From Aphanomyces cochlioides (taxonomy: Eukaryota > Oomycota > Saprolegniomycetes > Saprolegniales > Verrucalvaceae), in NCBI GenBank assembly GCA_019828595.1, contig JAHQRK010000008.1, forward strand, positions 1,984,001 to 2,048,000: a stretch of DNA of 64,000 nt, read 5' to 3'. Below, in pieces: positions 4,101-23,232 of this stretch. Position 1 is the stretch's first letter. Each line of letters begins with the position of its first letter. The notes under the pieces are model-generated. The model made no database searches, was not told where the DNA came from, and saw only the letters and a list, made by a program, of their open reading frames with translations. The translations under genes and the position numbers were made by a program.

Positions 4101-4114
4101 GCTCCTATTGCTCA
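4101..4114 (+). repeat. 14-nt tRNA-Met stub, target-site duplication left of A2 (G9T variant)
   Basis: The sequence is GCTCCTATTGCTCA, tRNA nucleotides 1-14 with T instead of G at position 9. The same T is found in the intact tRNA at 12246 on the other side of A2, which marks the two as copies of one target. Confidence 0.92.
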
Positions 4115-4192
4115 ATGTCAATGGGGAGTCTATTTGTAGTTAATGTAAACTACAAACTAATATTGCCCGAAGGCTCATCCCATTTCCAACTG
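4115..4192 (-). promoter_or_regulatory. Family A 3' UTR with two hairpins, probable RT recognition element
   Basis: Hairpin 1 has a perfect 9-bp stem, TTTGTAGTT (4133-4141) with AACTACAAA (4148-4156), and a 6-nt loop. Hairpin 2 is GCC/GGC (4165-4167 with 4172-4174), closing a UUCG loop in the transcript. The RNA ends CUCCCCAUUGACAU, directly abutting the tRNA stub. Family B keeps the same two-hairpin layout and the CUCCCCAUUG end with different stem bases. Site-specific LINEs commonly use 3' UTR structure for target-primed reverse transcription; that role here is inferred. The same segment starts at 13313, 21461, 23233, 35260, 35958, 44101, 46415 and 47127. Confidence 0.7.
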
Positions 4193-5407
4193 CTAGGCTG
4201 AATTGGAAATCAATTTGGCTTTTCGTTTTCTTGATTCGCTTCGACGTTGGGACTTCGATTTCTTCGGTGTTTGTAAGCTAACACGGCGAATATGTCGGAT
4301 AAAACTGACTCTTGGCATCTGACCCAGGGGGTATACATTTTCATTGTCTTGGATCATACATAGACTTCGGTCTATGCAGCGCTTGTATCGCTTGGCGAGG
4401 ACCCAGCAATGGGATGTTGAATCAGTGACAGAAACAACCAAGAATTCTCCGTCAGGCTCATCCAATATCGCTCTACAGATATCACGAATTGGATCACCCA
4501 CCGATTGCTTGAGCAGTTGACGGGAGAATATGGCGTCGTTGTAGTGGAATCCATGTGTGTATGCCAGCTTGAGAAAATCATGCATCTTGGAAGGGGGAAT
4601 GCCCGCGTCTTGAGGAACTCCATGGGCCTCTTTGAAACCCGAAATGACTTCTTCGCTGAGCTCAAAATTGGAGACATTCAAATTGGTAGCAACGATTCGG
4701 ATTGCAGCCGCAAGACAAGATTTGTCACTGTTGTTGCCAATTTCTAGCCACAGAGGATCCATCGCTCGAAATTCAGCAAGCGTTGGGGCGAGACCAGTGT
4801 TCGTGAGGAAGTGGGCTCCAGCTTGTCGCCATCGTTGGTACATCGCCACGGCTTCTTGACACCCGCTGAGGTCTTTTTCGTCGAACCAGTCTTTGTCGAG
4901 TCCATCCGGGCGTTGAAACTTCCAGTTGACTTGGTATTGAATAGTTGAAATTCGATTTCGCATTGATGCCACTTCGCGGTGGTCATCGATAAACAACACT
5001 TCATCGATGTCATCATCGTCGGTTGGAATTCGCAGAGTGCGTGGGCGGTTGGTTGGGGCATCAGCCGTTGTCGCATTCGTTTGTGGCCTGGCTGGAACAG
5101 AAACATCGTCCAATAGATCCATGAGGGATGGTAGCGGAGATCCATTGTCATTGCCCAAGGGGTCAAATTCGCGGGTGCTCGAGTTCAAAATGGACATATC
5201 AGGAGTAAATTGGTGTTCTTCAGTTGTAACTGGACTTGAAGGACGAGTGTCGGATGATTGCGTCATAGGTACAGAAATCTCAACTCCATCCACTCCCTCA
5301 AGAGTAATCCCTGGAGACATCGAGCTCCCCACACCTCGTGTAGTTATGGGTCTCGACGTCTGCGCGGGGAGTACGCTATCGGCAGTGAAAATCGTTGAAG
5401 CTTCCAT
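4193..5407 (-). CDS. ORF3: chromodomain-like plus putative cysteine-protease-like protein (A2)
   Basis: This 404-aa protein is encoded downstream of ORF2 in family A only. The ATG at 5407 is the first in frame; the frame is open upstream to 5569 and beyond, but without ATG. Residues 1-130 are Ser/Thr/Pro-rich and end in an acidic run. Residues about 146-195 resemble a chromodomain (Y158, V160, W162, K163, W174, then DL and a helix). Residues about 219-365 carry a Cys-His-Asp pattern, C231 in SCLAAA, H333 in SHCWVL and D354 in IQDN, in the order used by papain-like and C39-like peptidases. The tail (379-399) is Lys/Arg-rich and could be nuclear-targeting. The 213 nt between ORF2 and this ATG hold no other gene. 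Both domain calls come from motif reading and need a profile search. Confidence 0.72.
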   Translation of the reverse strand: MEASTIFTADSVLPAQTSRPITTRGVGSSMSPGITLEGVDGVEISVPMTQSSDTRPSSPVTTEEHQFTPDMSILNSSTREFDPLGNDNGSPLPSLMDLLDDVSVPARPQTNATTADAPTNRPRTLRIPTDDDDIDEVLFIDDHREVASMRNRISTIQYQVNWKFQRPDGLDKDWFDEKDLSGCQEAVAMYQRWRQAGAHFLTNTGLAPTLAEFRAMDPLWLEIGNNSDKSCLAAAIRIVATNLNVSNFELSEEVISGFKEAHGVPQDAGIPPSKMHDFLKLAYTHGFHYNDAIFSRQLLKQSVGDPIRDICRAILDEPDGEFLVVSVTDSTSHCWVLAKRYKRCIDRSLCMIQDNENVYPLGQMPRVSFIRHIRRVSLQTPKKSKSQRRSESRKRKAKLISNSA

Positions 5408-5620
5408 TGTTGTTGTCTTGGGTAAAATCAAAAGTGAGTCTTGGAGAATTGTTTTGAGATTCTCACTGAACTTATTCTCAGTTGCGACACTTGAGTCAGG
5501 CACGATTTGATTGGGCAGTGAAATGTTTTGCGCGGATCGTGAGTGATGGTCGCCAGGATTCCCAATCAAAAATTCAGCTGGGATACCAAGTCAAGAATAC
5601 AGCTGGGGCTTGTAATCAAA

Positions 5621-8600
5621 TTACTGGTGTTCAACTCGAAAAGACATGGGATATTTTTCGAATAGCTCGTTGTATCCAGCTTGAGAGAAAAGGACTGAGA
5701 CCGCTTCGATGATGTTTCGATAGTCGAAGTCGTCAGGCGAGAGCAAACGAATTGTTCGCCTGATGGAAGCTGTCCAACTGACAAATATAATCTCGTTCCA
5801 TAGTAAAATCGGTAGAGGCCTTTTGCCATCGAACTTGGTTGCATTTCTTTGAGTCCATAAGGAGTACGTGATGGAAGCACAAAGGAGGGACCATAATTTG
5901 AATAATGCGTCATGCAGGTGTTTTCCTCGCGTATTGGTCTTGAAGCGACTGATATTCGTGGTGGTTGCCCAATCAAACTTAACACCATAAGCTCTCCATG
6001 CTCGCTCTTGGAACATCCAAACTTGATGTACATGATGACATGTATGGAAGGCATGATGAAAAGTCTCAACATCCGAGCAATCTTCATAGACACAACAAAT
6101 AGCGTCAGGGTTTTGGATCTGCATATAGGAAAACCTCGAGTTGACGGGTAACATCTTCATGTGCAATCGAAACCATACATCGCCTTGAACAGGTGGAGGT
6201 AGATTACACACAGTACGAATGAGACGGATATACTTTGCTATGTCTTTGTCAGTTCTTGTCGTAGTCTTCATAGGATGTATAGCTTCAGTCTGGGGGGCGT
6301 GGTAAGCTAAATGCACCACGTTTTTCTTGGGCCACGACTCGAAAGGTAAATCAGCATCCTTGATTCTGGCTGTAAACGGATGTTGACAAGTCGGGACATT
6401 AGGCAGTGGCGACCCTTGCCGAATGTCAAACGATCGAACAACTTTGTCGAAGATTCGTGTGAGTTGATTGTAAATGTCGGTTGTGCGGGGCAATGTGGCA
6501 AAGTCCATGACTCCGTCCTGGTTTAGACAAACTTGGGCAGCTGGATTGTTCGACGACATTCGGTTCACGAACATGGTCTCTGTTGGCCAAGCGCCATGTG
6601 GGGTCAGGAAATCCTTCAGGCATCTGAGACCATTTTTGGCCCCGTGGCGGCACCAGAGACGCATGTCTTCATCTTTCACGACATTTGCTAACATCTTAGC
6701 AGAGCCGAAGTGCATTGCGTCGTAGGCTGTGAGCCATACCGGGAGGTTCAGTACCGTGTCGAGATTTGGAGGCACGCCGATTCGCTTACTCATGTCTGTG
6801 GCTGACCAATGTTTCCAAGTATCAAGCCACAGTGGATGGAGCTCGCGAAGCAAAAGCCACTTGGAGCTTGCATTTGGGTAGTATGAAAGAAAATCGAATG
6901 GGTGACTGTCTCGGAATAACTGATGTATTGTGCGGCTAAATTGTCGCTGTACAAGTTTCTTCCACACCAGGATTTCACCAGGAGAATCGGCAGACATAAA
7001 GAGCTGTAAACGAAGAAGGCGTTGTGTTCGCAGCCTCGATGCAATGTGGGGGATTCCCAGGCCTAAAGGCTTGTCGTACTGCCACCTTCTATGGATTGAG
7101 GGACGGTAACTCTCATCGAGCTGGGTCTTGCGGCAAAGTATGAACTTGTTTAACATTTGTTGCCACGTAACGACCATAGCAGGAGGCACAGGTACAACGG
7201 CTGTTACATGCCACAACATAGATAGCAACATCGTGGAGGCAATAAGCTTTCGGCCCTGCAATGTCCTTGCTCGTTTACCCCATAGTTGAAAGGACGAGAT
7301 GAATTTGTCGTTGAGTTTTTGAAGTTGGGAGTCAGCCGAAAGTCGATGGCCAAAGAGAATACCAAGATATTTCGTACACTGACCAGTTGGTACGATATTG
7401 AGCAAACCATCTGCTTCGATGTCTTCTTGATCGAGATGGTCGTTGAGAACCAAGGTCATGCACTTGGAACGATTCAGACGGGCCCCTGAAGCCGTGCAAA
7501 ACTCTTCCACAATTGCCATTTGCTCCACAGCAGATTGCAGCGAGTTTGATAACAACGTCGAGTCGTCGGCAAAGAATATACTCGTAATAACTGAGTCGTG
7601 GGGGAGAGCGATTCCAAGATGTGGGGACGCTCGGAGCATCTCACCAAGAGATTCTAGGTATAGGACGAACAGTAGGCATGATAAAGGACAGCCTTGTTTG
7701 ACGCCTCGGGTAGGTCGGATCTTAGGGCCAAGCTCGCCATTGAAGATGATCTGGACCAAAGGTGAGTCGTACAAAAGAGCTACCCACGCAATGAAACCAT
7801 CACCAGTGTTGACTTCTCTCAGCACATCAAGCATAAATTCTCGATCCACCATGTCGTACGCTTTCGAAAAGTCAAGGAATGTTGCATAGTAGTCGTGATC
7901 TTCGTTGGTGCAAAACGTTTGCAAAGTTTGCACAAGCAGGACGTGGTCATGCAGCCGTCGTCCTGGGACAAAGCCAGCTTGACTTGGGTGAATGAGATGA
8001 GGAGCTACTGTAGCCAGGCGATAAGCGAGGGCACGGGATAGTATCTTCACCTCCACTGACATGAGTGCAATAGGTCGGTAGTTTCCAGGATCGCCTCGAT
8101 CACCAGCTTTGAAGAGCAGAGCCACAGCACTACGCCTTTGTTGAAGGAGTAGTTTACCGTGGTGGTGAAGTTGGTAGTTGAAGACCCTGACCAGGATTTC
8201 GGAGAAAGCCTCGGGTGCTACTTGGAAGAAGGCCGCTGGCCATCCATCAGGACCAGGAGACTTGTTTGGACTCATTGTCTTGAGAGCACTACACAGCTCG
8301 GCTGCTGTGATAGGTCTGTCTAGCTCCTCGCGTTGCTCATCATTGAGTTTGCGGGAGATAAACCGTATGACAGCCCTCCGCCTCGCCCGGTTTAGCCGAG
8401 GTTGTTCGCCACGAGTGGTAGTCATTATTGCCTTCCAATGGGCAGTGAATCTCTCTTTGATAGTGGTAGGATCAGACACGGGAATGCCATCGACGTTGAC
8501 CGTCGTGATAGGAACCTTGAGTCCTTGTGGCCTTCGAAAGAAGTGGCTCGTACCGCGTTCGTTGATATTTGCATGAAAATCGAATTGCTGATCCATGCGG

Positions 8601-9736
8601 TATTGGCGATATTCGATTCTTGCGTTTTCCAGCGCCAACCGAGTAGCATCAACGGCAGCCTCGTCGAGCAAGCCAGCTTCGTATGATCGTTGTGCAGATA
8701 TATGTCTCAGTTTTAGGCTTTTGAGCTCGTGTTGCATGGATTGGAGGTGGTGGCGATGACATTGTTGTAAACGTCGTTTGATTCGCTTAAGCCACCCATA
8801 CCAGACGGCTCCCATGTTTGTCGATTCGTCCGCACGCATCTCAGAGAGGAGGTGTGATGCCTCTTCTCGTATGGCTTTGATGACGAGCGGGTCTTTGAGT
8901 AGCTCTCTCGGCAGCCTCCAGTAGCCACGGGTCGTGGGTGTATGACTTGTAGAGAGAACGACAGTGTGCTCCAAGTGATCTCCGGCAAAGCTGTTAGTGG
9001 CATATTTTGAGCTTTGGTAGGATTGGGCAACTAAATCTTGGTCAATGAACCAGTAGTCCAGACGATTGCTTCGTCCTGGACCGCTTGCCAGTCTTTCGTG
9101 AGGGTGGTGTAGGCGCCACGCGTCGATGACTCCTAGTTGTGACAGCCAGGCAAGACATTCGACTTTTCCAAAGGTGTGATCTTGCCGTGGTTTGGAAGCA
9201 TCGAGGTGTTCGTTGACAGGAAGGTTAAAATCTCCCCCAACCAGGTGTACACTGTTAGCTTCAAAAGCGCGAGGGAGACTGTCAAAGAAACTAGCCCGAT
9301 GTTGAGGGGTAACTGGCGCGTAAATGTTGTGGATGTAGACTGGGGTTTCATCCCAGTACGTTTTGATCACAATATAACGGCCAGGGATATCGTGTTGTGA
9401 TAAGTGCACCAGGCTTGAGAATCCAGGCATCGATTCGTGAAAGTATGATGCAACGCCACATCGACGGTTGTTCAAATTGTCCGTGCGGGTTGTTCGTAAG
9501 TCGTTGGTAAAAAGTTTGTACTTGCTAACACCCACTTCGTTGTCGAGGTGAGTGTGGAAAGTGTCAAGATGTTTTGCGTTGTTGAGTTTCGTTTCTTGAA
9601 AGAGAACAGCTTGTGTCGGTTTCCGAAGACGCCGTGCAACAAGATGTCCGTTTTCTTTCAGCCCATTGAGGTTGCTCGTCGTCACTTCAAGTATGGGGAG
9701 CTTGACAAAATGACCAGCCGCGACCACTTTAGCCAC
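5621..9736 (-). CDS. ORF2: LINE endonuclease / reverse transcriptase (A2), 1371 aa
   Basis: This is the enzyme that nicks the tRNA gene and copies the element RNA into it. Order: APE-type endonuclease (about 14-262) with SNLNG (N22, N24), QETK (E48), NIYAPV, GGDFN (D169), RLDY (D227) and GDH (D253, H254); reverse transcriptase with SPGPDGWP (493-500), FLDFSKAYD (D622), GVKQGCPLS and FADD (D724, D725); then a C-terminal region with a C-x5-C-x7-H-x4-C zinc-binding motif (C1214, C1220, H1228, C1233) like the zf-RVT domain of plant and protist LINEs. The frame begins at GTG within the ORF1 end; no ATG lies between the upstream in-frame TAG and the endonuclease core, so translation probably depends on ORF1 (+1 shift or reinitiation). 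P696S is private to this copy. The exact clade is not assigned. Confidence 0.93.
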   Translation of the reverse strand: MAKVVAAGHFVKLPILEVTTSNLNGLKENGHLVARRLRKPTQAVLFQETKLNNAKHLDTFHTHLDNEVGVSKYKLFTNDLRTTRTDNLNNRRCGVASYFHESMPGFSSLVHLSQHDIPGRYIVIKTYWDETPVYIHNIYAPVTPQHRASFFDSLPRAFEANSVHLVGGDFNLPVNEHLDASKPRQDHTFGKVECLAWLSQLGVIDAWRLHHPHERLASGPGRSNRLDYWFIDQDLVAQSYQSSKYATNSFAGDHLEHTVVLSTSHTPTTRGYWRLPRELLKDPLVIKAIREEASHLLSEMRADESTNMGAVWYGWLKRIKRRLQQCHRHHLQSMQHELKSLKLRHISAQRSYEAGLLDEAAVDATRLALENARIEYRQYRMDQQFDFHANINERGTSHFFRRPQGLKVPITTVNVDGIPVSDPTTIKERFTAHWKAIMTTTRGEQPRLNRARRRAVIRFISRKLNDEQREELDRPITAAELCSALKTMSPNKSPGPDGWPAAFFQVAPEAFSEILVRVFNYQLHHHGKLLLQQRRSAVALLFKAGDRGDPGNYRPIALMSVEVKILSRALAYRLATVAPHLIHPSQAGFVPGRRLHDHVLLVQTLQTFCTNEDHDYYATFLDFSKAYDMVDREFMLDVLREVNTGDGFIAWVALLYDSPLVQIIFNGELGPKIRPTRGVKQGCPLSCLLFVLYLESLGEMLRASPHLGIALPHDSVITSIFFADDSTLLSNSLQSAVEQMAIVEEFCTASGARLNRSKCMTLVLNDHLDQEDIEADGLLNIVPTGQCTKYLGILFGHRLSADSQLQKLNDKFISSFQLWGKRARTLQGRKLIASTMLLSMLWHVTAVVPVPPAMVVTWQQMLNKFILCRKTQLDESYRPSIHRRWQYDKPLGLGIPHIASRLRTQRLLRLQLFMSADSPGEILVWKKLVQRQFSRTIHQLFRDSHPFDFLSYYPNASSKWLLLRELHPLWLDTWKHWSATDMSKRIGVPPNLDTVLNLPVWLTAYDAMHFGSAKMLANVVKDEDMRLWCRHGAKNGLRCLKDFLTPHGAWPTETMFVNRMSSNNPAAQVCLNQDGVMDFATLPRTTDIYNQLTRIFDKVVRSFDIRQGSPLPNVPTCQHPFTARIKDADLPFESWPKKNVVHLAYHAPQTEAIHPMKTTTRTDKDIAKYIRLIRTVCNLPPPVQGDVWFRLHMKMLPVNSRFSYMQIQNPDAICCVYEDCSDVETFHHAFHTCHHVHQVWMFQERAWRAYGVKFDWATTTNISRFKTNTRGKHLHDALFKLWSLLCASITYSLWTQRNATKFDGKRPLPILLWNEIIFVSWTASIRRTIRLLSPDDFDYRNIIEAVSVLFSQAGYNELFEKYPMSFRVEHQ

Positions 9737-12194
9737 GGGAAGCGATCGTTGTGAGATCCGCTAGGTCGCCGTGAATTAAAGTAGGTTCGCTTGGGTGAAA
9801 CATGACTTGATTGTGGAGAGTGATATCCAAATCGTTGCTTTCGTGTAGTTGAAGGATTTTTGTCATGATGTGACACATCGATTCTCCGTCGCCAGTGTAC
9901 ATGAATTCCATTCTGTTCCATATGTGGAGGCCAAGGTCGGTGTACATCAGGAGTGACATGAGCGTTTCGGAGGATAGACTGCGTTTACCAAGGCGAGAGG
10001 GTAACGCTGTCACTGGACTTTTTGTTGAGGCCAAAATTGCCGCATCGCTATTGAAATATAGTGGAGCATGAACTGCCATCAATACTTCTGCAATGGCCAG
10101 CACTTCTTCGACTTCAACTCTGTTGAGGACGATGTCATCATCGGTGATGATTGCCTCGATGAGTGGGAGGTTGTTGACCATCTTCTGGTCACTGAACACC
10201 GAGATCACGTGGTCGTGAGTGATTGGAGTGCCGAATGTTGCCTCGTAGAGCTGACCAAAAGATTTTGTGCCACCACCAGACGCTCTTAGCCAACGATTAA
10301 GCAGTCGAAGACGAACAAAGTATTCGAAGCTGTCACGATTGGAGACAAAAATTTGGTGCAGTTGCAGTCCAAATTCGATTGGCGCACGTTCTAGATGGAT
10401 GCAGATCGTGTCAACACGCCCGTCCGTAATCAATTTCAATAAGTTGAAGGAATCGTGCGCTAACGCTTCCTTAACTTGGGCCGGGATATGTTGTGGTGCG
10501 TTTTGAGCCTTGGTGTCAAGGTCGTTGAGCTCGGCAAGTATGGCATCGAGAGACTTCTCAAACCTTTGGATTGAGCCCTCGTGGGGTTTGATCCCGCTAA
10601 TGAACTCTTCAGCGGCAACGTGCACCTTGTCACCAGATTTGAGTGTCAGCTTTGGAACAATTACTTTGACAGTGGTGTTGCCAACTGTCGTTTCGTGTTC
10701 CTCGGGCTCAACATTAGCGCGTTCGTCCAGAGCCGCAAACATGTTCGGGGAGATCCAAGGACGATCAGGAGCTGGGATTGAGCCAGCGGAGATTGGGGTT
10801 TTCTTTCTTTTGCCTGTAGTTTGAACTTCAGTCCATTCCTTGTTGCTGTCTCGGGTCGTTTTCTGCCGTTTGGCAGTGGATGTCGAGACAGCGGCGTCTC
10901 CCCGTGGGCGGTGAGGGGTTGCGTGAAGTCCATGTTGGGTGGCGATTACATCGAGGTCAAGGCGCGCGAGCTTCTTGTCACGGTAAAACCATCCTTGACC
11001 AAACACGCGGAGGCACCGACCCTTGAAAATGAATTCTTCAATTGATCGACCGTCATTGTGCATAGATTCGGGTATAGCTGTCCCTTCAAAATACAAGCGA
11101 TAACGAGAGCTAGCCAAGCCAGTCGTCGAGGAAACTGTGGAGTATGAGCCCCACAAAAAGCGCGGCTCAAGCTTTGACATGATGCTGAACATGAGACGTT
11201 CTTCATCCTGTCCTTGGAGACCAGATGGGATATCGATGAAATATCCATCAAGTATATGGGGCTCTGTCATGACAAATCTCTGAGAGCTGCCATCCTTTGC
11301 CACTTGGATCTTGAGAGAGACTCCACGCAGCTTTTTAAGAGCATCTTCAGAGGCTATGCCCCACTTGAGAAGACGATTGGAGACATCTTTCTCGCACTTG
11401 ATGACATCGACAAATGCATCGTCCAAATCAAGCGCTTGGTTGTCAAACAATAGAGATGTCATTGCCTTGGAGATGTCGATGTATTTGGTGTATTGGCCAG
11501 TGGACATTTGTAGCCAGCCAACAACATCTCTGGGGGAATGTTTTTGGATGGGCAAAGTGTCGTCAAACGTGAGAGATCCTGTCGCGCGTTTTTGCAACAA
11601 GGACGCCAGCTCGGCCATAGTTGGTCGATAATGGCCGACGTCACTGTTCCGCTGAGCCTTGGCAGATTTAGCTCTCTGCTTGGCTTGGAATTCCCACACG
11701 CATTCGTTTGGCTTTTTGGTCGAGGTGTTCGACTCGGGTGGTATTGGCACGGAGCGTGTTGTAGCAGGAGGCGAGGCATCGATTTGAGCTTCAGGCTCCA
11801 TTTCCACATCAACATTGGTGTCGCGAATCGATTGGTCTTCAGAGCGCGGCTCCAGCTCAGTGGCTTGAGTAATCGGTGGGGTATGTGGTTGGTTGTTGTT
11901 GGAGATATCCTCTATGTCTTCATCAGGCATCGGAGAAACATTATCCTTGTTGACAGTTTTGTCGCTGGTACGAGCGCTTGGTAATGGCACGCGACCACCG
12001 AGTGTAGCAAGACGTATGGGCGGTTGAGCAGCAGGCGGAGTTTTGTCGATGATTGAGTCAGGTTCATCGTCATCATCATCGTCAACAATCACCTCCATGA
12101 TACTAGAAGCGTCCGAGGTATTGCGAAAGGGAGAGGCAGAAAAAGCTGAGGGCTTGTGTGCATGAGCACGGCTGGAAGAGCGGGTAGTCGCCAT
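9729..12194 (-). CDS. ORF1: LINE nucleic-acid-binding-type protein (A2), 821 aa
   Basis: This is the first frame of the family A LINE, with ATG at 12194, 51 nt from the element 5' end. ORF1 proteins of LINEs normally coat the RNA and form the RNP; that role is inferred from position. The N-terminal 165 residues are disordered, Ser/Pro/Asp-rich, with a six-residue Asp run. A conserved block follows (WEFQAKQRAK to about 440) with RYRLYFEG, FKGRCLRVFGQGWF and YRDKKLARLDLD. Next comes a basic GKRKKT patch, and then a C-terminal block conserved with family B from WISPNMF onward. I see no CCHC knuckle or recognisable RRM. Frame continuation into the tRNA gene upstream of the ATG is fortuitous. The stop overlaps the ORF2 start by 8 nt. 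Confidence 0.88.
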   Translation of the reverse strand: MATTRSSSRAHAHKPSAFSASPFRNTSDASSIMEVIVDDDDDDEPDSIIDKTPPAAQPPIRLATLGGRVPLPSARTSDKTVNKDNVSPMPDEDIEDISNNNQPHTPPITQATELEPRSEDQSIRDTNVDVEMEPEAQIDASPPATTRSVPIPPESNTSTKKPNECVWEFQAKQRAKSAKAQRNSDVGHYRPTMAELASLLQKRATGSLTFDDTLPIQKHSPRDVVGWLQMSTGQYTKYIDISKAMTSLLFDNQALDLDDAFVDVIKCEKDVSNRLLKWGIASEDALKKLRGVSLKIQVAKDGSSQRFVMTEPHILDGYFIDIPSGLQGQDEERLMFSIMSKLEPRFLWGSYSTVSSTTGLASSRYRLYFEGTAIPESMHNDGRSIEEFIFKGRCLRVFGQGWFYRDKKLARLDLDVIATQHGLHATPHRPRGDAAVSTSTAKRQKTTRDSNKEWTEVQTTGKRKKTPISAGSIPAPDRPWISPNMFAALDERANVEPEEHETTVGNTTVKVIVPKLTLKSGDKVHVAAEEFISGIKPHEGSIQRFEKSLDAILAELNDLDTKAQNAPQHIPAQVKEALAHDSFNLLKLITDGRVDTICIHLERAPIEFGLQLHQIFVSNRDSFEYFVRLRLLNRWLRASGGGTKSFGQLYEATFGTPITHDHVISVFSDQKMVNNLPLIEAIITDDDIVLNRVEVEEVLAIAEVLMAVHAPLYFNSDAAILASTKSPVTALPSRLGKRSLSSETLMSLLMYTDLGLHIWNRMEFMYTGDGESMCHIMTKILQLHESNDLDITLHNQVMFHPSEPTLIHGDLADLTTIASRG

Positions 12195-12210
12195 GTTGTC
12201 AGTTTTGGAC

Positions 12211-12245
12211 AGTGGTACTGCGGGGTAGCTGGCAAATTGGAAACT
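12211..12245 (-). promoter_or_regulatory. Conserved 35-nt 5' terminus of the LINE (A2)
   Basis: It is identical to the termini of A1, A3, A7, B2 and B3. Here it joins the first tRNA base with no extra nucleotides, so tRNA and LINE start back to back on opposite strands. Confidence 0.55.
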
Positions 12246-12318
12246 GCTCCTATTGCTCAGTTGGTAGAGCGTCAGTCTCATAATCTGAAGGTCGCCAGTT
12301 CGATCCTGGCTGGGAGCA
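12246..12318 (+). tRNA. tRNA-Met(CAT), elongator; unit 1, G9T variant
   Basis: This is a 73-nt cloverleaf. Acceptor GCTCCTA pairs with TGGGAGC, the D stem is GCTC/GAGC, the anticodon loop is CTCATAA (CAT), and the T arm is GCCAG-TTCGATC-CTGGC with discriminator A. G1-C72 and the normal TTC T-loop point to the elongator, not the initiator. Position 9 is T instead of G, in the A box (TTGCTCAGTTGG), which could weaken transcription. The 5' flank is the 5' end of LINE A2, so the gene was rebuilt by target-site duplication. T runs follow as terminators. Confidence 0.95.
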
Positions 12319-13298: not shown

Positions 13299-13312
13299 GC
13301 TCCTATGGCTCA
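13299..13312 (+). repeat. 14-nt tRNA-Met stub left of A3 (start of unit 2)
   Basis: The sequence is GCTCCTATGGCTCA, preceded by the native 5' flank ggcatgcc. It lies exactly 1053 bp after the unit 1 tRNA start. It retains part of the A box and no B box, so it is not a functional tRNA gene. Confidence 0.93.
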
Positions 13313-13390
13313 ATGTCAATGGGGAGTCTATTTGTAGTTAATGTAAACTACAAACTAATATTGCCCGAAGGCTCATCCCATTTCCAACTG

Positions 13391-14605
13391 CTAGGCTGAA
13401 TTGGAAATCAATTTGGCTTTTCGTTTTCTTGATTCGCTTCGACGTTGGGACTTCGATTTCTTCGGTGTTTGTAAGCTAACACGGCGAATATGTCGGATAA
13501 AACTGACTCTTGGCATCTGACCCAGGGGGTATACATTTTCATTGTCTTGGATCATACATAGACTTCGGTCTATGCAGCGCTTGTATCGCTTGGCGAGGAC
13601 CCAGCAATGGGTTGTTGAATCAGTGACAGAAACAACCAAGAATTCTCCGTCAGGCTCATCCAATATCGCTCTACAGATATCACGAATTGGATCGCCCACC
13701 GATTGCTTGAGCAGTTGACGGGAGAATATGGCGTCGTTGTAGTGGAATCCATGTGTGTATGCCAGCTTGAGAAAATCATGCATCTTGGAAGGGGGAATGC
13801 CCGCGTCTTGAGGAACTCCATGGGCCTCTTTGAAACCCGAAATGACTTCTTCGCTGAGCTCAAAATTGGAGACATTCAAATTGGTAGCAACGATTCGGAT
13901 TGCAGCCGCAAGACAAGATTTGTCACTGTTGTTGCCAATTTCTAGCCACAGAGGATCCATCGCTCGAAATTCAGCAAGCGTTGGGGCGAGACCAGTGTTC
14001 GTGAGGAAGTGGGCTCCAGCTTGTCGCCATCGTTGGTACATCGCCACGGCTTCTTGACACCCGCTGAGGTCTTTTTCGTCGAACCAGTCTTTGTCGAGTC
14101 CATCCGGGCGTTGAAACTTCCAGTTGACTTGGTATTGAATAGTTGAAATTCGATTTCGCATTGATGCCACTTCGCGGTGGTCATCGATAAACAACACTTC
14201 ATCGATGTCATCATCGTCGGTTGGAATTCGCAGAGTGCGTGGGCGGTTGGTTGGGGCATCAGCCGTTGTCGCATTCGTTTGTGGCCTGGCTGGAACAGAA
14301 ACATCGTCCAATAGATCCATGAGGGATGGTAGCGGAGATCCATTGTCATTGCCCAAGGGGTCAAATTCGCGGGTGCTCGAGTTCAAAATGGACATATCAG
14401 GAGTAAATTGGTGTTCTTCAGTTGTAACTGGACTTGAAGGACGAGTGTCGGATGATTGCGTCATAGGTACAGAAATCTCAACTCCATCCACTCCCTCAAG
14501 AGTAATCCCTGGAGACATCGAGCTCCCCACACCTCGTGTAGTTATGGGTCTCGACGTCTGCGCGGGGAGTACGCTATCGGCAGTGAAAATCGTTGAAGCT
14601 TCCAT
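13391..14605 (-). CDS. ORF3: chromodomain-like plus putative cysteine-protease-like protein (A3)
   Basis: This is a 404-aa product from the ATG at 14605, with the same domain layout and putative C231/H333/D354 residues as A2 ORF3. A one-base deletion about 25 nt upstream breaks the open frame that precedes the ATG in other copies but leaves the protein intact. This supports the internal ATG as the real start, or else means this copy lacks an N-terminal extension. Confidence 0.72.
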   Translation of the reverse strand: MEASTIFTADSVLPAQTSRPITTRGVGSSMSPGITLEGVDGVEISVPMTQSSDTRPSSPVTTEEHQFTPDMSILNSSTREFDPLGNDNGSPLPSLMDLLDDVSVPARPQTNATTADAPTNRPRTLRIPTDDDDIDEVLFIDDHREVASMRNRISTIQYQVNWKFQRPDGLDKDWFDEKDLSGCQEAVAMYQRWRQAGAHFLTNTGLAPTLAEFRAMDPLWLEIGNNSDKSCLAAAIRIVATNLNVSNFELSEEVISGFKEAHGVPQDAGIPPSKMHDFLKLAYTHGFHYNDAIFSRQLLKQSVGDPIRDICRAILDEPDGEFLVVSVTDSTTHCWVLAKRYKRCIDRSLCMIQDNENVYPLGQMPRVSFIRHIRRVSLQTPKKSKSQRRSESRKRKAKLISNSA

Positions 14606-14817
14606 TGTTGTTGTCTTGGGTAAAATCAAAGTGAGTCTTGGAGAATTGTTTTGAGATTCTCACTGAACTTATTCTCAGTTGCGACACTTGAGTCAGGCAC
14701 GATTTGATTGGGCAGTGAAATGTTTTGCGCGGATCGTGAGTGATGGTCGCCAGGATTCCCAATCAAAAATTCAGCTGGGATACCAAGTCAAGAATACAGC
14801 TGGGGCTTGTAATCAAA

Positions 14818-17800
14818 TTACTGGTGTTCAACTCGAAAAGACATGGGATATTTTTCGAATAGCTCGTTGTATCCAGCTTGAGAGAAAAGGACTGAGACCG
14901 CTTCGATGATGTTTCGATAGTCGAAGTCGTCAGGCGAGAGCAAACGAATTGTTCGCCTGATGGAAGCTGTCCAACTGACAAATATAATCTCGTTCCATAG
15001 TAAAATCGGTAGAGGCCTTTTGCCATCGAACTTGGTTGCATTTCTTTGAGTCCATAAGGAGTACGTGATGGAAGCACAAAGGAGGGACCATAATTTGAAT
15101 AATGCGTCATGCAGGTGTTTTCCTCGCGTATTGGTCTTGAAGCGACTGATATTCGTGGTGGTTGCCCAATCAAACTTAACACCATAAGCACTCCATGCTC
15201 GCTCTTGGAACATCCAAACTTGATGTACATGATGACATGTATGGAAGGCATGATGAAAAGTCTCAACATCCGAGCAATCTTCATAGACACAACAAATAGC
15301 GTCAGGGTTTTGGATCTGCATATAGGAAAACCTCGAGTTGACGGGTAACATCTTCATGTGCAATCGAAACCATACATCGCCTTGAACAGGTGGAGGTAGA
15401 TTACACACAGTACGAATGAGACGGATATACTTTGCTATGTCTTTGTCAGTTCTTGTCGTAGTCTTCATAGGATGTATAGCTTCAGTCTGGGGGGCGTGGT
15501 AAGCTAAATGCACCACGTTTTTCTTGGGCCACGACTCGAAAGGTAAATCAGCATCCTTGATTCTGGCTGTAAACGGATGTTGACAAGTCGGGACATTAGG
15601 CAGTGGCGACCCTTGCCGAATGTCAAACGATCGAACAACTTTGTCGAAGATTCGTGTGAGTTGATTGTAAATGTCGGTTGTGCGGGGCAATGTGGCAAAG
15701 TCCATGACTCCGTCCTGGTTTAGACAAACTTGGGCAGCTGGATTGTTCGACGACATTCGGTTCACGAACATGGTCTCTGTTGGCCAAGCGCCATGTGGGG
15801 TCAGGAAATCCTTCAGGCATCTGAGACCATTTTTGGCCCCGTGGCGGCACCAGAGACGCATGTCTTCATCTTTCACGACATTTGCTAACATCTTAGCAGA
15901 GCCGAAGTGCATTGCGTCGTAGGCTGTGAGCCATACCGGGAGGTTCAGTACCGTGTCGAGATTTGGAGGCACGCCGATTCGCTTACTCATGTCTGTGGCT
16001 GACCAATGTTTCCAAGTATCAAGCCACAGTGGATGGAGCTCGCGAAGCAAAAGCCACTTGGAGCTTGCATTTGGGTAGTATGAAAGAAAATCGAATGGGT
16101 GACTGTCTCGGAATAACTGATGTATTGTGCGGCTAAATTGTCGCTGTACAAGTTTCTTCCACACCAGGATTTCACCAGGAGAATCGGCAGACATAAAGAG
16201 CTGTAAACGAAGAAGGCGTTGTGTTCGCAGCCTCGATGCAATGTGGGGGATTCCCAGGCCTAAAGGCTTGTCGTACTGCCACCTTCTATGGATTGAGGGA
16301 CGGTAACTCTCATCGAGCTGGGTCTTGCGGCAAAGTATGAACTTGTTTAACATTTGTTGCCACGTAACGACCATAGCAGGAGGCACAGGTACAACGGCTG
16401 TTACATGCCACAACATAGATAGCAACATCGTGGAGGCAATAAGCTTTCGGCCCTGCAATGTCCTTGCTCGTTTACCCCATAGTTGAAAGGACGAGATGAA
16501 TTTGTCGTTGAGTTTTTGAAGTTGGGAGTCAGCCGAAAGTCGATGGCCAAAGAGAATACCAAGATATTTCGTACACTGACCAGTTGGTACGATATTGAGC
16601 AAACCATCTGCTTCGATGTCTTCTTGATCGAGATGGTCGTTGAGAACCAAGGTCATGCACTTGGAACGATTCAGACGGGCCCCTGAAGCCGTGCAAAACT
16701 CTTCCACAATTGCCATTTGCTCCACAGCAGATTGCAGCGAGTTTGATAACAACGTCGAGTCGTCGGCAAAGAATATACTCGTAATAACTGAGTCGTGGGG
16801 GAGAGCGATTCCAAGATGTGGGGACGCTCGGAGCATCTCACCAAGAGGTTCTAGGTATAGGACGAACAGTAGGCATGATAAAGGACAGCCTTGTTTGACG
16901 CCTCGGGTAGGTCGGATCTTAGGGCCAAGCTCGCCATTGAAGATGATCTGGACCAAAGGTGAGTCGTACAAAAGAGCTACCCACGCAATGAAACCATCAC
17001 CAGTGTTGACTTCTCTCAGCACATCAAGCATGAATTCTCGATCCACCATGTCGTACGCTTTCGAAAAGTCAAGGAATGTTGCATAGTAGTCGTGATCTTC
17101 GTTGGTGCAAAACGTTTGCAAAGTTTGCACAAGCAGGACGTGGTCATGCAGCCGTCGTCCTGGGACAAAGCCAGCTTGACTTGGGTGAATGAGATGAGGA
17201 GCTACTGTAGCCAGGCGATAAGCGAGGGCACGGGATAGTATCTTCACCTCCACTGACATGAGTGCAATAGGTCGGTAGTTTCCAGGATCGCCTCGATCAC
17301 CAGCTTTGAAGAGCAGAGCCACAGCACTACGCCTTTGTTGAAGGAGTAGTTTACCGTGGTGGTGAAGTTGGTAGTTGAAGACCCTGACCAGGATTTCGGA
17401 GAAAGCCTCGGGTGCTACTTGGAAGAAGGCCGCTGGCCATCCATCAGGACCAGGAGACTTGTTTGGACTCATTGTCTTGAGAGCACTACACAGCTCGGCT
17501 GCTGTGATAGGTCTGTCTAGCTCCTCGCGTTGCTCATCATTGAGTTTGCGGGAGATAAACCGTATGACAGCCCTCCGCCTCGCCCGGTTTAGCCGAGGTT
17601 GTTCGCCACGAGTGGTAGTCATTATTGCCTTCCAATGGGCAGTGAATCTCTCTTTGATAGTGGTAGGATCAGACACGGGAATGCCATCGACGTTGACCGT
17701 CGTGATAGGAACCTTGAGTCCTTGTGGCCTTCGAAAGAAGTGGCTCGTACCACGTTCGTTGACATTTGCATGAAAATCGAATTGCTGATCCATGCGGTAT

Positions 17801-18933
17801 TGGCGATATTCGATTCTTGCGTTTTCCAGCGCCAACCGAGTAGCATCAACGGCAGCCTCGTCGAGCAAGCCAGCTTCGTATGATCGTTGTGCAGATATAT
17901 GTCTCAGTTTTAGGCTTTTGAGCTCGTGTTGCATGGATTGGAGGTGGTGGCGATGACATTGTTGTAAACGTCGTTTGATTCGCTTAAGCCACCCATACCA
18001 GACGGCTCCCATGTTTGTCGATTCGTCCGCACGCATCTCAGAGAGGAGGTGTGATGCCTCTTCTCGTATGGCTTTGATGACGAGCGGGTCTTTGAGTAGC
18101 TCTCTCGGCAGCCTCCAGTAGCCACGGGTCGTGGGTGTATGACTTGTAGAGAGAACGACAGTGTGCTCCAAGTGATCTCCGGCAAAGCTGTTAGTGGCAT
18201 ATTTTGAGCTTTGGTAGGATTGGGCAACTAAATCTTGGTCAATGAACCAGTAGTCCAGACGATTGCTTCGTCCTGGACCGCTTGCCAGTCTTTCGTGAGG
18301 GTGGTGTAGGCGCCACGCGTCGATGACTCCTAGTTGTGACAGCCAGGCAAGACATTCGACTTTTCCAAAGGTGTGATCTTGCCGTGGTTTGGAAGCATCG
18401 AGGTGTTCGTTGACAGGAAGGTTAAAATCTCCCCCAACCAGGTGTACACTGTTAGCTTCAAAAGCGCGAGGGAGACTGTCAAAGAAACTAGCCCGATGTT
18501 GAGGGGTAACTGGCGCGTAAATGTTGTGGATGTAGACTGGGGTTTCATCCCAGTACGTTTTGATCACAATATAACGGCCAGGGATATCGTGTTGTGATAA
18601 GTGCACCAGGCTTGAGAATCCAGGCATCGATTCGTGAAAGTATGATGCAACGCCACATCGACGGTTGTTCAAATTGTCCGTGCGGGTTGTTCGTAAGTCG
18701 TTGGTAAAAAGTTTGTACTTGCTAACACCCACTTCGTTGTCGAGGTGAGTGTGGAAAGTGTCAAGATGTTTTGCGTTGTTGAGTTTCGTTTCTTGAAAGA
18801 GAACAGCTTGTGTCGGTTTCCGAAGACGCCGTGCAACAAGATGTCCGTTTTCTTTCAGCCCATTGAGGTTGCTCGTCGTCACTTCAAGTATGGGGAGCTT
18901 GACAAAATGACCAGCCGCGACCACTTTAGCCAC
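14818..18933 (-). CDS. ORF2: LINE endonuclease / reverse transcriptase (A3), 1371 aa
   Basis: It is complete and open, with all endonuclease motifs (SNLNG, QETK, GGDFN, RLDY, GDH), RT motifs (FLDFSKAYD, FADD) and the C/C/H/C zinc motif. It has the consensus LYLEPLGEM where A2 has serine, and S instead of R at residue 1248. It starts in the +1 frame at GTG, overlapping the ORF1 stop by 8 nt, with no ATG. Confidence 0.94.
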   Translation of the reverse strand: MAKVVAAGHFVKLPILEVTTSNLNGLKENGHLVARRLRKPTQAVLFQETKLNNAKHLDTFHTHLDNEVGVSKYKLFTNDLRTTRTDNLNNRRCGVASYFHESMPGFSSLVHLSQHDIPGRYIVIKTYWDETPVYIHNIYAPVTPQHRASFFDSLPRAFEANSVHLVGGDFNLPVNEHLDASKPRQDHTFGKVECLAWLSQLGVIDAWRLHHPHERLASGPGRSNRLDYWFIDQDLVAQSYQSSKYATNSFAGDHLEHTVVLSTSHTPTTRGYWRLPRELLKDPLVIKAIREEASHLLSEMRADESTNMGAVWYGWLKRIKRRLQQCHRHHLQSMQHELKSLKLRHISAQRSYEAGLLDEAAVDATRLALENARIEYRQYRMDQQFDFHANVNERGTSHFFRRPQGLKVPITTVNVDGIPVSDPTTIKERFTAHWKAIMTTTRGEQPRLNRARRRAVIRFISRKLNDEQREELDRPITAAELCSALKTMSPNKSPGPDGWPAAFFQVAPEAFSEILVRVFNYQLHHHGKLLLQQRRSAVALLFKAGDRGDPGNYRPIALMSVEVKILSRALAYRLATVAPHLIHPSQAGFVPGRRLHDHVLLVQTLQTFCTNEDHDYYATFLDFSKAYDMVDREFMLDVLREVNTGDGFIAWVALLYDSPLVQIIFNGELGPKIRPTRGVKQGCPLSCLLFVLYLEPLGEMLRASPHLGIALPHDSVITSIFFADDSTLLSNSLQSAVEQMAIVEEFCTASGARLNRSKCMTLVLNDHLDQEDIEADGLLNIVPTGQCTKYLGILFGHRLSADSQLQKLNDKFISSFQLWGKRARTLQGRKLIASTMLLSMLWHVTAVVPVPPAMVVTWQQMLNKFILCRKTQLDESYRPSIHRRWQYDKPLGLGIPHIASRLRTQRLLRLQLFMSADSPGEILVWKKLVQRQFSRTIHQLFRDSHPFDFLSYYPNASSKWLLLRELHPLWLDTWKHWSATDMSKRIGVPPNLDTVLNLPVWLTAYDAMHFGSAKMLANVVKDEDMRLWCRHGAKNGLRCLKDFLTPHGAWPTETMFVNRMSSNNPAAQVCLNQDGVMDFATLPRTTDIYNQLTRIFDKVVRSFDIRQGSPLPNVPTCQHPFTARIKDADLPFESWPKKNVVHLAYHAPQTEAIHPMKTTTRTDKDIAKYIRLIRTVCNLPPPVQGDVWFRLHMKMLPVNSRFSYMQIQNPDAICCVYEDCSDVETFHHAFHTCHHVHQVWMFQERAWSAYGVKFDWATTTNISRFKTNTRGKHLHDALFKLWSLLCASITYSLWTQRNATKFDGKRPLPILLWNEIIFVSWTASIRRTIRLLSPDDFDYRNIIEAVSVLFSQAGYNELFEKYPMSFRVEHQ

Positions 18934-21391
18934 GGGAAGCGATCGTTGTGAGATCCGCTAGGTCGCCGTGAATTAAAGTAGGTTCGCTTGGGTGAAACAT
19001 GACTTGATTGTGGAGAGTGATATCCAAATCGTTGCTTTCGTGTAGTTGAAGGATTTTTGTCATGATGTGACACATCGATTCTCCGTCGCCAGTGTACATG
19101 AATTCCATTCTGTTCCATATGTGGAGGCCAAGGTCGGTGTACATCAGGAGTGACATGAGCGTTTCGGAGGATAGACTGCGTTTACCAAGGCGAGAGGGTA
19201 ACGCTGTCACTGGACTTTTTGTTGAGGCCAAAATTGCCGCATCGCTATTGAAATATAGTGGAGCATGAACTGCCATCAATACTTCTGCAATGGCCAGCAC
19301 TTCTTCGACTTCAACTCTGTTGAGGACGATGTCATCATCGGTGATGATTGCCTCGATGAGTGGGAGGTTGTTGACCATCTTCTGGTCACTGAACACCGAG
19401 ATCACGTGGTCGTGAGTGATTGGAGTGCCGAATGTTGCCTCGTAGAGCTGACCAAAAGATTTTGTGCCACCACCAGACGCTCTTAGCCAACGATTAAGCA
19501 GTCGAAGACGAACAAAGTATTCGAAGCTGTCACGATTGGAGACAAAAATTTGGTGCAGTTGCAGTCCAAATTCGATTGGCGCACGTTCTAGATGGATGCA
19601 GATCGTGTCAACACGCCCGTCCGTAATCAATTTCAATAAGTTGAAGGAATCGTGCGCTAACGCTTCCTTAACTTGGGCCGGGATATGTTGTGGTGCGTTT
19701 TGAGCCTTGGTGTCAAGGTCGTTGAGCTCGGCAAGTATGGCATCGAGAGACTTCTCAAACCTTTGGATTGAGCCCTCGTGGGGTTTGATCCCGCTAATGA
19801 ACTCTTCAGCGGCAACGTGCACCTTGTCACCAGATTTGAGTGTCAGCTTTGGAACAAATACTTTGACAGTGGTGTTGCCAACTGTCGTTTCGTGTTCCTC
19901 GGGCTCAACATTAGCGCGTTCGTCCAGAGCCGCAAACATGTTCGGGGAGATCCAAGGACGATCAGGAGCTGGGATTGAGCCAGCGGAGATTGGGGTTTTC
20001 TTTCTTTTGCCTGTAGTTTGAACTTCAGTCCATTCCTTGTTGCTGTCTCGGGTCGTTTTCTGCCGTTTGGCAGTGGATGTCGAGACAGCGGCGTCTCCCC
20101 GTGGGCGGTGAGGGGTTGCGTGAAGTCCATGTTGGGTGGCGATTACATCGAGGTCAAGGCGCGCGAGCTTCTTGTCACGGTAAAACCATCCTTGACCAAA
20201 CACGCGGAGGCACCGACCCTTGAAAATGAATTCTTCAATTGATCGACCGTCATTGTGCATAGATTCGGGTATAGCTGTCCCTTCAAAATACAAGCGATAA
20301 CGAGAGCTAGCCAAGCCAGTCGTCGAGGAAACTGTGGAGTATGAGCCCCACAAAAAGCGCGGCTCAAGCTTTGACATGATGCTGAACATGAGACGTTCTT
20401 CATCCTGTCCTTGGAGACCAGATGGGATATCGATGAAATATCCATCAAGTATATGGGGCTCTGTCATGACAAATCTCTGAGAGCTGCCATCCTTTGCCAC
20501 TTGGATCTTGAGAGAGACTCCACGCAGCTTTTTAAGAGCATCTTCAGAGGCTATGCCCCACTTGAGAAGACGATTGGAGACATCTTTCTCGCACTTGATG
20601 ACATCGACAAATGCATCGTCCAAATCAAGCGCTTGGTTGTCAAACAATAGAGATGTCATTGCCTTGGAGATGTCGATGTATTTGGTGTATTGGCCAGTGG
20701 ACATTTGTAGCCAGCCAACAACATCTCTGGGGGAATGTTTTTGGATGGGCAAAGTGTCGTCAAACGTGAGAGATCCTGTCGCGCGTTTTTGCAACAAGGA
20801 CGCCAGCTCGGCCATAGTTGGTCGATAATGGCCGACGTCACTGTTCCGCTGAGCCTTGGCAGATTTAGCTCTCTGCTTGGCTTGGAATTCCCACACGCAT
20901 TCGTTTGGCTTTTTGGTCGAGGTGTTCGACTCGGGTGGTATTGGCACGGAGCGTGTTGTAGCAGGAGGCGAGGCATCGATTTGAGCTTCAGGCTCCATTT
21001 CCACATCAACATTGGTGTCGCGAATCGATTGGTCTTCAGAGCGCGGCTCCAGCTCAGTGGCTTGAGTAATCGGTGGGGTATGTGGTTGGTTGTTGTTGGA
21101 GATATCCTCTATGTCTTCATCAGGCATCGGAGAAACATTATCCTTGTTGACAGTTTTGTCGCTGGTACGAGCGCTTGGTAATGGCACGCGACCACCGAGT
21201 GTAGCAAGACGTATGGGCGGTTGAGCAGCAGGCGGAGTTTTGTCGATGATTGAGTCAGGTTCATCGTCATCATCATCGTCAACAATCACCTCCATGATAC
21301 TAGAAGCGTCCGAGGTATTGCGAAAGGGAGAGGCAGAAAAAGCTGAGGGCTTGTGTGCATGAGCACGGCTGGAAGAGCGGGTAGTCGCCAT
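18926..21391 (-). CDS. ORF1: LINE nucleic-acid-binding-type protein (A3), 821 aa
   Basis: It is complete, starting at ATG 21391 and ending in ...ASRG-TAA. It has the same acidic, disordered N-terminus, central conserved block, GKRKKT patch and C-terminal block as A2, with isoleucine to phenylalanine in the VKVFVPKL segment. The 5' UTR is 55 nt including the 4 extra junction bases. Confidence 0.9.
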   Translation of the reverse strand: MATTRSSSRAHAHKPSAFSASPFRNTSDASSIMEVIVDDDDDDEPDSIIDKTPPAAQPPIRLATLGGRVPLPSARTSDKTVNKDNVSPMPDEDIEDISNNNQPHTPPITQATELEPRSEDQSIRDTNVDVEMEPEAQIDASPPATTRSVPIPPESNTSTKKPNECVWEFQAKQRAKSAKAQRNSDVGHYRPTMAELASLLQKRATGSLTFDDTLPIQKHSPRDVVGWLQMSTGQYTKYIDISKAMTSLLFDNQALDLDDAFVDVIKCEKDVSNRLLKWGIASEDALKKLRGVSLKIQVAKDGSSQRFVMTEPHILDGYFIDIPSGLQGQDEERLMFSIMSKLEPRFLWGSYSTVSSTTGLASSRYRLYFEGTAIPESMHNDGRSIEEFIFKGRCLRVFGQGWFYRDKKLARLDLDVIATQHGLHATPHRPRGDAAVSTSTAKRQKTTRDSNKEWTEVQTTGKRKKTPISAGSIPAPDRPWISPNMFAALDERANVEPEEHETTVGNTTVKVFVPKLTLKSGDKVHVAAEEFISGIKPHEGSIQRFEKSLDAILAELNDLDTKAQNAPQHIPAQVKEALAHDSFNLLKLITDGRVDTICIHLERAPIEFGLQLHQIFVSNRDSFEYFVRLRLLNRWLRASGGGTKSFGQLYEATFGTPITHDHVISVFSDQKMVNNLPLIEAIITDDDIVLNRVEVEEVLAIAEVLMAVHAPLYFNSDAAILASTKSPVTALPSRLGKRSLSSETLMSLLMYTDLGLHIWNRMEFMYTGDGESMCHIMTKILQLHESNDLDITLHNQVMFHPSEPTLIHGDLADLTTIASRG

Positions 21392-21407
21392 GTTGTCAGT
21401 TTTGGAC

Positions 21408-21442
21408 AGTGGTACTGCGGGGTAGCTGGCAAATTGGAAACT
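21408..21442 (-). promoter_or_regulatory. Conserved 35-nt 5' terminus of the LINE (A3)
   Basis: It is identical to the other full-length termini; four extra bases (gctc) separate it from the target 14-mer. Confidence 0.55.
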
Positions 21443-21446
21443 GCTC

Positions 21447-21460
21447 GCTCCTATGGCTCA
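21447..21460 (+). repeat. 14-nt tRNA-Met stub between A3 and A4
   Basis: GCTCCTATGGCTCA marks the A4 insertion site in the tRNA gene rebuilt by A3. Confidence 0.92.
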
Positions 21461-21538
21461 ATGTCAATGGGGAGTCTATTTGTAGTTAATGTAAACTACA
21501 AACTAATATTGCCCGAAGGCTCATCCCATTTCCAACTG

Positions 21539-22747: not shown

Positions 22748-22960
22748 TGTTGTTGTCTTGGGTAAAATCAAAAGTGAGTCTTGGAGAATTGTTTTGAGAT
22801 TCTCACTGAACTTATTCTCAGTTGCGACACTTGAGGCAGGCACGATTTGATTGGGCAGTGAAATGTTTTGCGCGGATCGTGAGTGATGGTCGCCAGGATT
22901 CCCAATCAAAAATTCAGCTGGGATACCAAGTCAAGAATACAGCTGGGGCTTGTAATCAAA

Positions 22961-23218: not shown

Positions 23219-23232
23219 GCTCCTATGGCTCA
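23219..23232 (+). repeat. 14-nt tRNA-Met stub between A4 and A5
   Basis: GCTCCTATGGCTCA forms the target junction of A5. Confidence 0.92.

Follow-up and report, generated by a model that had tools for sequence, protein, structure and literature searches.

APE-type LINEs of Aphanomyces cochlioides occupy one base in the A box of many tRNA genes, with the gene apparently restored by duplication

We analysed a stretch of 64,000 nucleotides (nt) of the oomycete Aphanomyces cochlioides, C78:1984001-2048000, where C78 is contig JAHQRK010000008.1 of a 76.2-Mb, 94-contig genome; this whole stretch is called the window here. It carries stacked long interspersed nuclear elements (LINEs) of two families, A and B, which interrupt tRNA-Met genes. 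We consider it very likely (probability about 0.9) that these families and two further ones, C and D, are target-specific LINEs with an endonuclease of the apurinic/apyrimidinic (APE) type, that they insert in the A box of tRNA genes, and that the gene is restored upon insertion. Eukaryotic tRNA genes generally possess an A box.

The window lies within a tandem array of tRNA-Met genes, the repeat unit of which is 1053 bp long and has matches spanning about C78:1.88-2.27 Mb. Large tRNA arrays of a single type are already known from Phytophthora infestans (PMC9584435). Allowing a single mismatch, we counted 21 occurrences of the first 14 nt of tRNA-Met in the window against 0.02 expected by chance, and a chance origin of these junctions was rejected. 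Eight of the 21 begin a complete tRNA-Met gene, while the remaining 13 run directly into the 3′ end of a LINE, nine belonging to family A (ATGTCAATGGGGAG...) and four to family B (CTGCAATGGGGAGG...). At all 13 junctions the LINE 3′ end is preceded by tRNA nucleotide 14, the same count as in an earlier, model-made reading of the letters alone (the sequence-only reading). The LINEs are oriented antisense to the tRNA and their 3′ end has no tail. At the other side, the 12 right-hand junctions visible in the window, of full-length and truncated copies alike, lead back to tRNA nucleotide 1, where as many as four extra bases may separate the element 5′ end from the copied tRNA start.

A full-length element measures 8,131 bp in family A and 7,326 bp in family B. 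In the window, three of the nine A copies are full length, as are two of the three B copies that can be seen at both ends; the rest are truncated at varied 5′ positions. The window copies are at least 99.6% identical to reference copies. The elements' open reading frames (ORFs) are open in some copies and frameshifted in others. There are five stacks in the window, and the four that end inside it all terminate in a complete tRNA-Met gene, at 12246, 27271, 33140 and 47838. The fifth leaves the window, and a complete repeat unit begins at C78:2054912, the position expected for the end of a third B copy if that were full length. The sequence-only reading had proposed that insertion restores an intact gene, which these complete genes bear out; it had also set the gene against the element 5′ end, which needs the amendment that up to four extra bases may stand at the joint. 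The features, in window positions, are as follows.

4101..4114, plus strand: tRNA-Met nt 1-14 stub (T variant), 3′ junction, before the family A 3′ end
4115..12245, minus strand: family A LINE, full length, 8131 bp
4193..5569, minus strand: family A third ORF, 458 amino acids (aa), no function assigned
5621..9736, minus strand: family A ORF2, with N-terminal APE-type endonuclease, reverse transcriptase (RT) and C-terminal zf-RVT-like region
9729..12197, minus strand: family A ORF1, ~820 aa, no Pfam match
12246..12318, plus strand: restored, complete tRNA-Met gene carrying T for G at nt 9; 5′ end of stack 1
13299..13312, plus strand: tRNA stub, 3′ junction, first of stack 2
13313..21446, minus strand: family A LINE, full length, extra bases at the 5′ junction
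21447..21460, plus strand: tRNA stub, 3′ junction
21461..23218, minus strand: family A LINE, 5′-truncated
23219..23232, plus strand: tRNA stub, 3′ junction
23233..27270, minus strand: family A LINE, 5′-truncated
27271..27343, plus strand: complete tRNA-Met gene, end of stack 2
27271..28323, plus strand: tRNA-Met tandem repeat unit, 1053 bp; next units at 28324, 29377 and 30430
31483..31496, plus strand: tRNA stub, 3′ junction of stack 3
31497..33139, minus strand: family B LINE, 5′-truncated
33140..33212, plus strand: complete tRNA-Met gene, end of stack 3
34193..34265, plus strand: complete tRNA-Met gene
35246..35259, plus strand: tRNA stub, 3′ junction, first of stack 4
35260..35943, minus strand: family A LINE, 5′-truncated
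35958..44086, minus strand: family A LINE, full length; stub at 35944-35957
44101..46400, minus strand: family A LINE, 5′-truncated; stub at 44087-44100
46415..47112, minus strand: family A LINE, 5′-truncated; stub at 46401-46414
47127..47837, minus strand: family A LINE, 5′-truncated; stub at 47113-47126
47838..47910, plus strand: complete tRNA-Met gene, end of stack 4
48905..56231, minus strand: family B LINE, full length, 7327 bp; stub at 48891-48904
56246..63571, minus strand: family B LINE, full length, 7326 bp; stub at 56232-56245
56403..60557, minus strand: family B ORF2, 64% identical to family A ORF2
61029..63560, minus strand: family B ORF1, 58% identical to family A over 482 residues
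63572..63585, plus strand: tRNA stub, 3′ junction of the family B element leaving the window

A base change in the first stack served as a tracer. Both the junction at 4101 and the complete gene at 12246 carry GCTCCTATTGCTCA, in which nt 9 is changed from G to T. The leftmost junction of this stack, C78:1978134, has the normal G, and the T is found in the next three junctions (C78:1978676, C78:1979954 and 4101 of the window) as well as in the gene at 12246. A G-to-T change that arose after the first insertion and was copied by three later ones gives exactly this order, G and then T, which supports a true duplication and sequential stacking. The 14-bp duplication that the sequence-only reading equated with the tRNA 5′ end is supported as a duplication of nt 1-14, although at 4101 and 12246 in the altered form. 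Classed by target gene, family, 5′ position and extra bases, the loci examined fall into 47 distinct combinations. So many 5′ junction types imply many independent insertions, and amplification of a single insertion was rejected on this count and on the ten tRNA genes described below.

Next, the strictness of the site was measured genome-wide. The 22-mer of the family A 3′ end (one mismatch allowed), a 29-mer joining TRGCTCA to this end (one mismatch over the whole length; at least two of the matches read TTGCTCA) and a 30-mer from the internal 3′ untranslated region (UTR) of family A (up to three mismatches) were each found 203 times; these pattern counts are totals, with places listed for about 100 matches per pattern, and it is in number that the three agree. 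Unrelated flanks on many copies, which the sequence-only reading named as a refutation of its fixed site, were not seen for family A, and the three equal counts make a sizeable set of A copies elsewhere unlikely, barring copies without this 3′ UTR. For family B, 224 ends (21-mer, one mismatch) compare with 220 from a different pattern, an exact match to the 3′ end preceded by TRGCTCA. The 5′ end common to A and B occurs 167 times, and TRGCTCA follows 7-12 bases beyond it in 163 cases. Among the 100 listed of these 163, the element joins nt 1 directly in 60, through one extra base in 23 and through two to four in 17, extras longer than the gap limit of the pattern being concealed.

Junctions of A and B were also read individually: 127 distinct ones (57 A, 70 B) from 17 contigs, a non-random sample drawn from the match lists of ~427 junctions in total. 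Every one of the 127 is preceded by one of twelve 14-mers, which are nt 1-14 of a tRNA gene in 126 cases and part of a tRNA-like short interspersed nuclear element (SINE) in one. Eleven of them match the beginnings of ten tRNA genes, which cover eight isotypes: Met (also as the T variant), Asn, Ile, Tyr, Phe, Thr, Ala-AGC, Ala-CGC, Lys-TTT and Lys-CTT. The remaining 14-mer comes from the SINE, at its A box. The isotypes were called by ARAGORN on complete or SINE-interrupted copies for Met, Asn, Ile, Phe, Thr, Lys and Ala, and Tyr was identified by eye from its anticodon and intron. T8, G10, C11, T12, C13, A14, G15 and G18 are invariant across 11 compared targets, a comparison that left out the Met T variant, which differs at nt 9. 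Val-CAC, which lies next to Thr on contig C2, and His, next to Ala on C24, lack C11 and C13, and no insertions were seen in them; this does not amount to a genome-wide survey of unhit genes. As a small control, four out of four junctions read in the dimeric array on contig C2 are in Thr and none in Val.

The SINE itself showed two such insertions, of family A at C15:1207845 (L057) and of family C at C5:377004 (L105), both at its A box. Reading L105 as a SINE without its end explains this locus less well, as it carries almost the same 3′ end as family C. Use of the site therefore extends to a tRNA-like A box that is not part of a true tRNA gene.

Family C comprises C1 (about C23:3871345-3880298) and C2 (about C24:44407-53087; both sets of coordinates derived by hand), which have a 3′ end (GTGTACAATCGCG...) that differs from those of A and B and is preceded by TCCTCTATAGCTCA (Asn) and GGGGATGTAGCTCA (Ala). 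Their 5′ ends adjoin nt 1, with an extra G in some, in Met, Asn, Tyr, Ala and Lys genes. C1 is 36% identical to family A in the endonuclease and about 50% in the RT region. Family D was found at five places in Ile, where GGTCGTATAGCTCA is followed by ATGACAATCGGGG, and the C terminus of its ORF2 is 32% identical to that of A. The target base is therefore common to all four families despite their widely diverged proteins, and the simplest reading is that the target specificity may be old and inherited.

The proteins were then compared with known domains. ORF2 has an N-terminal APE-type endonuclease, then the RT, then a C-terminal Cys-His region. The RT matches RVT_1 with E values of 1.4e-32 (A) and 3.4e-34 (B), as expected of a LINE-type RT. 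For ORF2 as a whole, the best relative of solved structure is the LINE-1 ORF2 protein (E 1.1e-56), with both endonuclease and RT covered; R2 comes behind, matching in the RT region only. The endonuclease of family C matches Pfam Exo_endo_phos with 47.9 bits (cut-off 24.5), while that of A and of one B copy reaches about 17 bits, under the cut-off, and the other B ORF2 has no listed match. Residues G168, D169, N171, G252, D253 and H254 are invariant in 18 aligned relatives; together with the family C match and the A-C alignment at 36%, they identify the N-terminal domain as an APE-like endonuclease. The 5′ truncations, the fixed 3′ end and the target-site duplication are likewise those of LINEs. 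Judged from these sequence features, families A-D are APE-type LINEs. Close relatives carrying an organism name came from Aphanomyces, with A. astaci and A. invadans among the species, and from Thraustotheca; contigs of viruses and prokaryotes yielded no relatives.

Compared between the A element at 4115-12245 and the B element at 56246-63571, the first 69 bp are 85% identical, the only match by megablast; the more sensitive blastn aligned the 3′ ends at 76% identity over 84 bp. For each family the 3′ terminal 100 nt are predicted, without a statistical test, to fold into a hairpin, which could be a recognition element for the RT. The conserved 5′ bases may possibly have a double use, as LINE 5′ UTR and as upstream region of the tRNA.

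The sequences themselves show the exact base, the duplication, the LINE orientation, the tail-less 3′ end, the restored gene, the variety of genes used as targets, the stacking order in one stack and the protein domains. We infer the nicks, the priming, the order of the strand cuts and the transcription of the restored genes; for the nicks and the priming, the following scheme draws on the general LINE pathway. The element endonuclease would nick TRGCTCA^G on the sense strand of the tRNA, 3′ of A14, and the 3′ OH of GCTCA would prime reverse transcription from the fixed, tail-less 3′ end of the element RNA. The cut in the second strand would fall ~14-15 bp from the nick, at tRNA nucleotide 1 or immediately ahead of it, and repair would duplicate nt 1-14. 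Read on the tRNA sense strand, the product is a nt 1-14 stub, an antisense LINE and then a complete tRNA gene, which retains both internal promoter boxes and its 3′ flank and has its 5′ flank alone replaced, by the LINE 5′ end. Such a gene is a new target, so that elements accumulate in stacks ending in a complete gene. The sequence-only reading had placed the two nicks between nt 14 and 15 of the sense strand and at or near nucleotide 1; the observed geometry fits both positions, and the nicks as such are deduced from it.

Several points weigh against this scheme or against its generality. The bare motif TRGCTCA occurs at eight sites on the minus strand of the window and none has an insertion, so that TRGCTCA alone is insufficient and a longer sequence or protein cues must be needed. 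The T variant of tRNA-Met shows that nt 9 is not strictly required, and four of the 167 full-length 5′ ends fall outside the 5′ pattern. Part of the junction sample was also preselected: the source list of the short B stretches already required TRGCTCA, leaving the seven preceding bases as the only independent test, while the list behind the first 20 short A stretches had no such requirement. Copy counts are not event counts, as whole units have been amplified, for example at C34:3905697-3919806. Finally, for the relatives in other species no link to target sites was obtained.

Among the alternatives, the one that survives best is that RNA polymerase III (Pol III) factors, TFIIIB or TFIIIC, recruit the element, as for TRE5-A or Ty3, with a weak sequence preference of the endonuclease. 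The sites read all lie at the start of a tRNA gene or in an A-box SINE, and the eight bare TRGCTCA sites are empty, as this would predict. However, the 3′ junction is base-exact, and in the sampled dimeric arrays Thr is hit and not Val (four of four junctions on contig C2), and Ala and not His, although all of these should be Pol III genes; the unhit ones are those without C11 and C13. This pattern of hit and unhit genes implies that the sequence is needed and is still compatible with help from Pol III factors. We consider recruitment with a weak sequence preference rather unlikely. It is much less probable that unequal crossing-over or gene conversion has spread a few ancient insertions: the identity of at least 99.6% and the periodic amplification on C34 would agree with it, but the 47 distinct 5′ junction types and the ten different tRNA genes do not, and gene conversion would require the same G-to-T change at all four places of the tracer stack. 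An assembly artefact, with repeats collapsed or mis-joined, is conceivable in arrays so highly repetitive, but hardly credible when the same base-exact junction recurs on 17 contigs, in different tRNA genes and with different 5′ flanks. Specificity for the tRNA-Met gene alone, as the sequence-only reading had it, fits the 13 window junctions because the window lies in a tRNA-Met array, and it is refuted by insertions of A and B at this very tRNA position in Asn, Ile, Tyr, Phe, Thr, two Ala and two Lys genes, which makes ten tRNA genes and eight amino-acid types with Met, besides the tRNA-like SINE.

Elements of the NeSL clade have an endonuclease of restriction type, and Keno, Mutsu and Dewa belong to the Tx1 group. 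NeSL/LIN-group LINEs in tRNA genes include NeSL-1_TV (tRNA-Pro), LIN15_SM (tRNA-Arg) and LIN25_SM (tRNA-Glu), which like A-D are non-LTR elements with a specific site inside tRNA genes (PMC4640811); each of these, however, is listed with a single tRNA type, and the available part of that text mentions no gene-restoring duplication. The Utopia elements of oomycetes share with A-D the host group and the site-specific insertion into arrays of small-RNA genes, with intact U2 genes upstream of the insertions, but have a restriction-like endonuclease and the U2 snRNA gene as target; their authors favoured a deletion on insertion and left recombination or a lost duplication open (PMC4640811). Against both groups, A-D carry an N-terminal APE-type endonuclease, and no separate search for a restriction-like domain was made.

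Closest in position are Dada-tIA, -tIB and -tY of Perkinsus, which insert in the A box with a proposed duplication, TAGCTC, that overlaps the motif used here (PMC3706591). In contrast to A-D, these are DNA transposons with a transposase, a 6-7 bp target-site duplication and a tRNA type of its own for each family (PMC3706591), whereas A and B encode an RT and duplicate about 14-15 bp; a 6-bp duplication of the Dada kind would not rebuild the tRNA gene. The Dictyostelium elements TRE5 and TRE3 are APE-type LINEs with tRNA genes as landmarks, but they insert outside these genes, 40-54 bp upstream or 40-150 bp downstream (PMC5911963); of the junctions read here, 126 of 127 are after nt 14 of a tRNA gene and one is at the same position in a SINE. 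Keno (U2), Mutsu (5S rRNA) and Dewa (tRNA-Leu spacer) resemble A-D as LINEs at multicopy RNA genes, Keno also in its described APE-like endonuclease, and differ in their targets, none being described inside the tRNA A box in the parts of the sources available (PMC4640811, PMC3706591). The comparisons drawn in the sequence-only reading were incomplete, lacking the NeSL/LIN LINEs specific for tRNA genes and the A-box Dada elements (PMC4640811, PMC3706591).

Our literature search, made without Repbase and most subscription journals so that a described family could be missed, returned no APE-type LINE at one A-box base of many isotypes with gene restoration, and a search on Aphanomyces or tRNA-specific LINEs returned no description of the A-D system. 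LINEs inside tRNA genes and A-box DNA transposons are already in print; what appears new here, going by the sequences, is the combination of an APE-type element, one A-box base, many isotypes and a restored gene.

We tentatively propose a wider reading, to which we give less than even odds. A LINE lineage may have taken the Pol III internal promoter as its insertion site: by recognising the shared A box it would occupy many tRNA families at once, and each gene would be restored by the duplication of nt 1-14. The LINE 5′ end would become the new upstream region, head to head with the gene, and the two may share a divergent promoter region, in which case insertion would be harmless and self-renewing. 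The system offers a natural case of an L1-like endonuclease and RT that insert at a single base of a promoter both essential and conserved, with hundreds of copies present and no net gene loss. It opens to test the single-base specificity of APE endonucleases, whether A-box DNA or Pol III factors are its source, and how a target that would suffer damage could, through the length of a duplication, be renewed permanently. Site-specific LINEs are also relevant to targeted DNA insertion.

The third ORF of family A (458 aa, 4193-5569) lies between ORF2 and the 3′ end and is absent from B. A Pfam search with this ORF and with ORF1 of A and B gave no family, and the lone match of the third ORF to PDB sequences (E 0.91) was not used. 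Its homologues were three proteins, one from A. cochlioides, and the AlphaFold2 model built from four sequences had a mean pLDDT of 38.6, too poor for a structure search. A metagenome protein is 57-59% identical over part of it. Inspection by eye raised a protease or a chromodomain as candidate readings of this ORF, and we claim neither. In P0066, a protein of 264 aa, part of the A third ORF is fused to a stretch that by eye resembles the C terminus of B ORF2, which suggests a chimeric copy in this genome.

In the amplified region C34:3905697-3919806, family B 3′ ends alternate at 2.29 and 2.41 kb, as in a tandem-amplified unit with the insertions already inside. At C12:2525778 and C12:2527060, two SINE-type tails stand in opposite orientation 1.3 kb apart; no exact SINE head is listed on that contig, and they may belong to a partner LINE or to older copies. 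The SINE is ~350 bp long, has a head that is tRNA-Thr-like by eye (GGGAAATTGGCTCAGTGGTAGAGC...ATATACTCAATAAA) and sits in the anticodon arm of tRNA genes (loci L102, L103, L104 and L106-L110; heads at C15:1127623-1507038 and on C24). Eight full copies were read: five are in genes called by ARAGORN (Val, two Ala, Arg and one odd call), and the sequence around the other three is tRNA-like by eye. Two duplications measured by eye, in Val and Ala, are ~15-16 bp long. Genome-wide, the 15-mer of the SINE head was counted 123 times and the tail 136 times.

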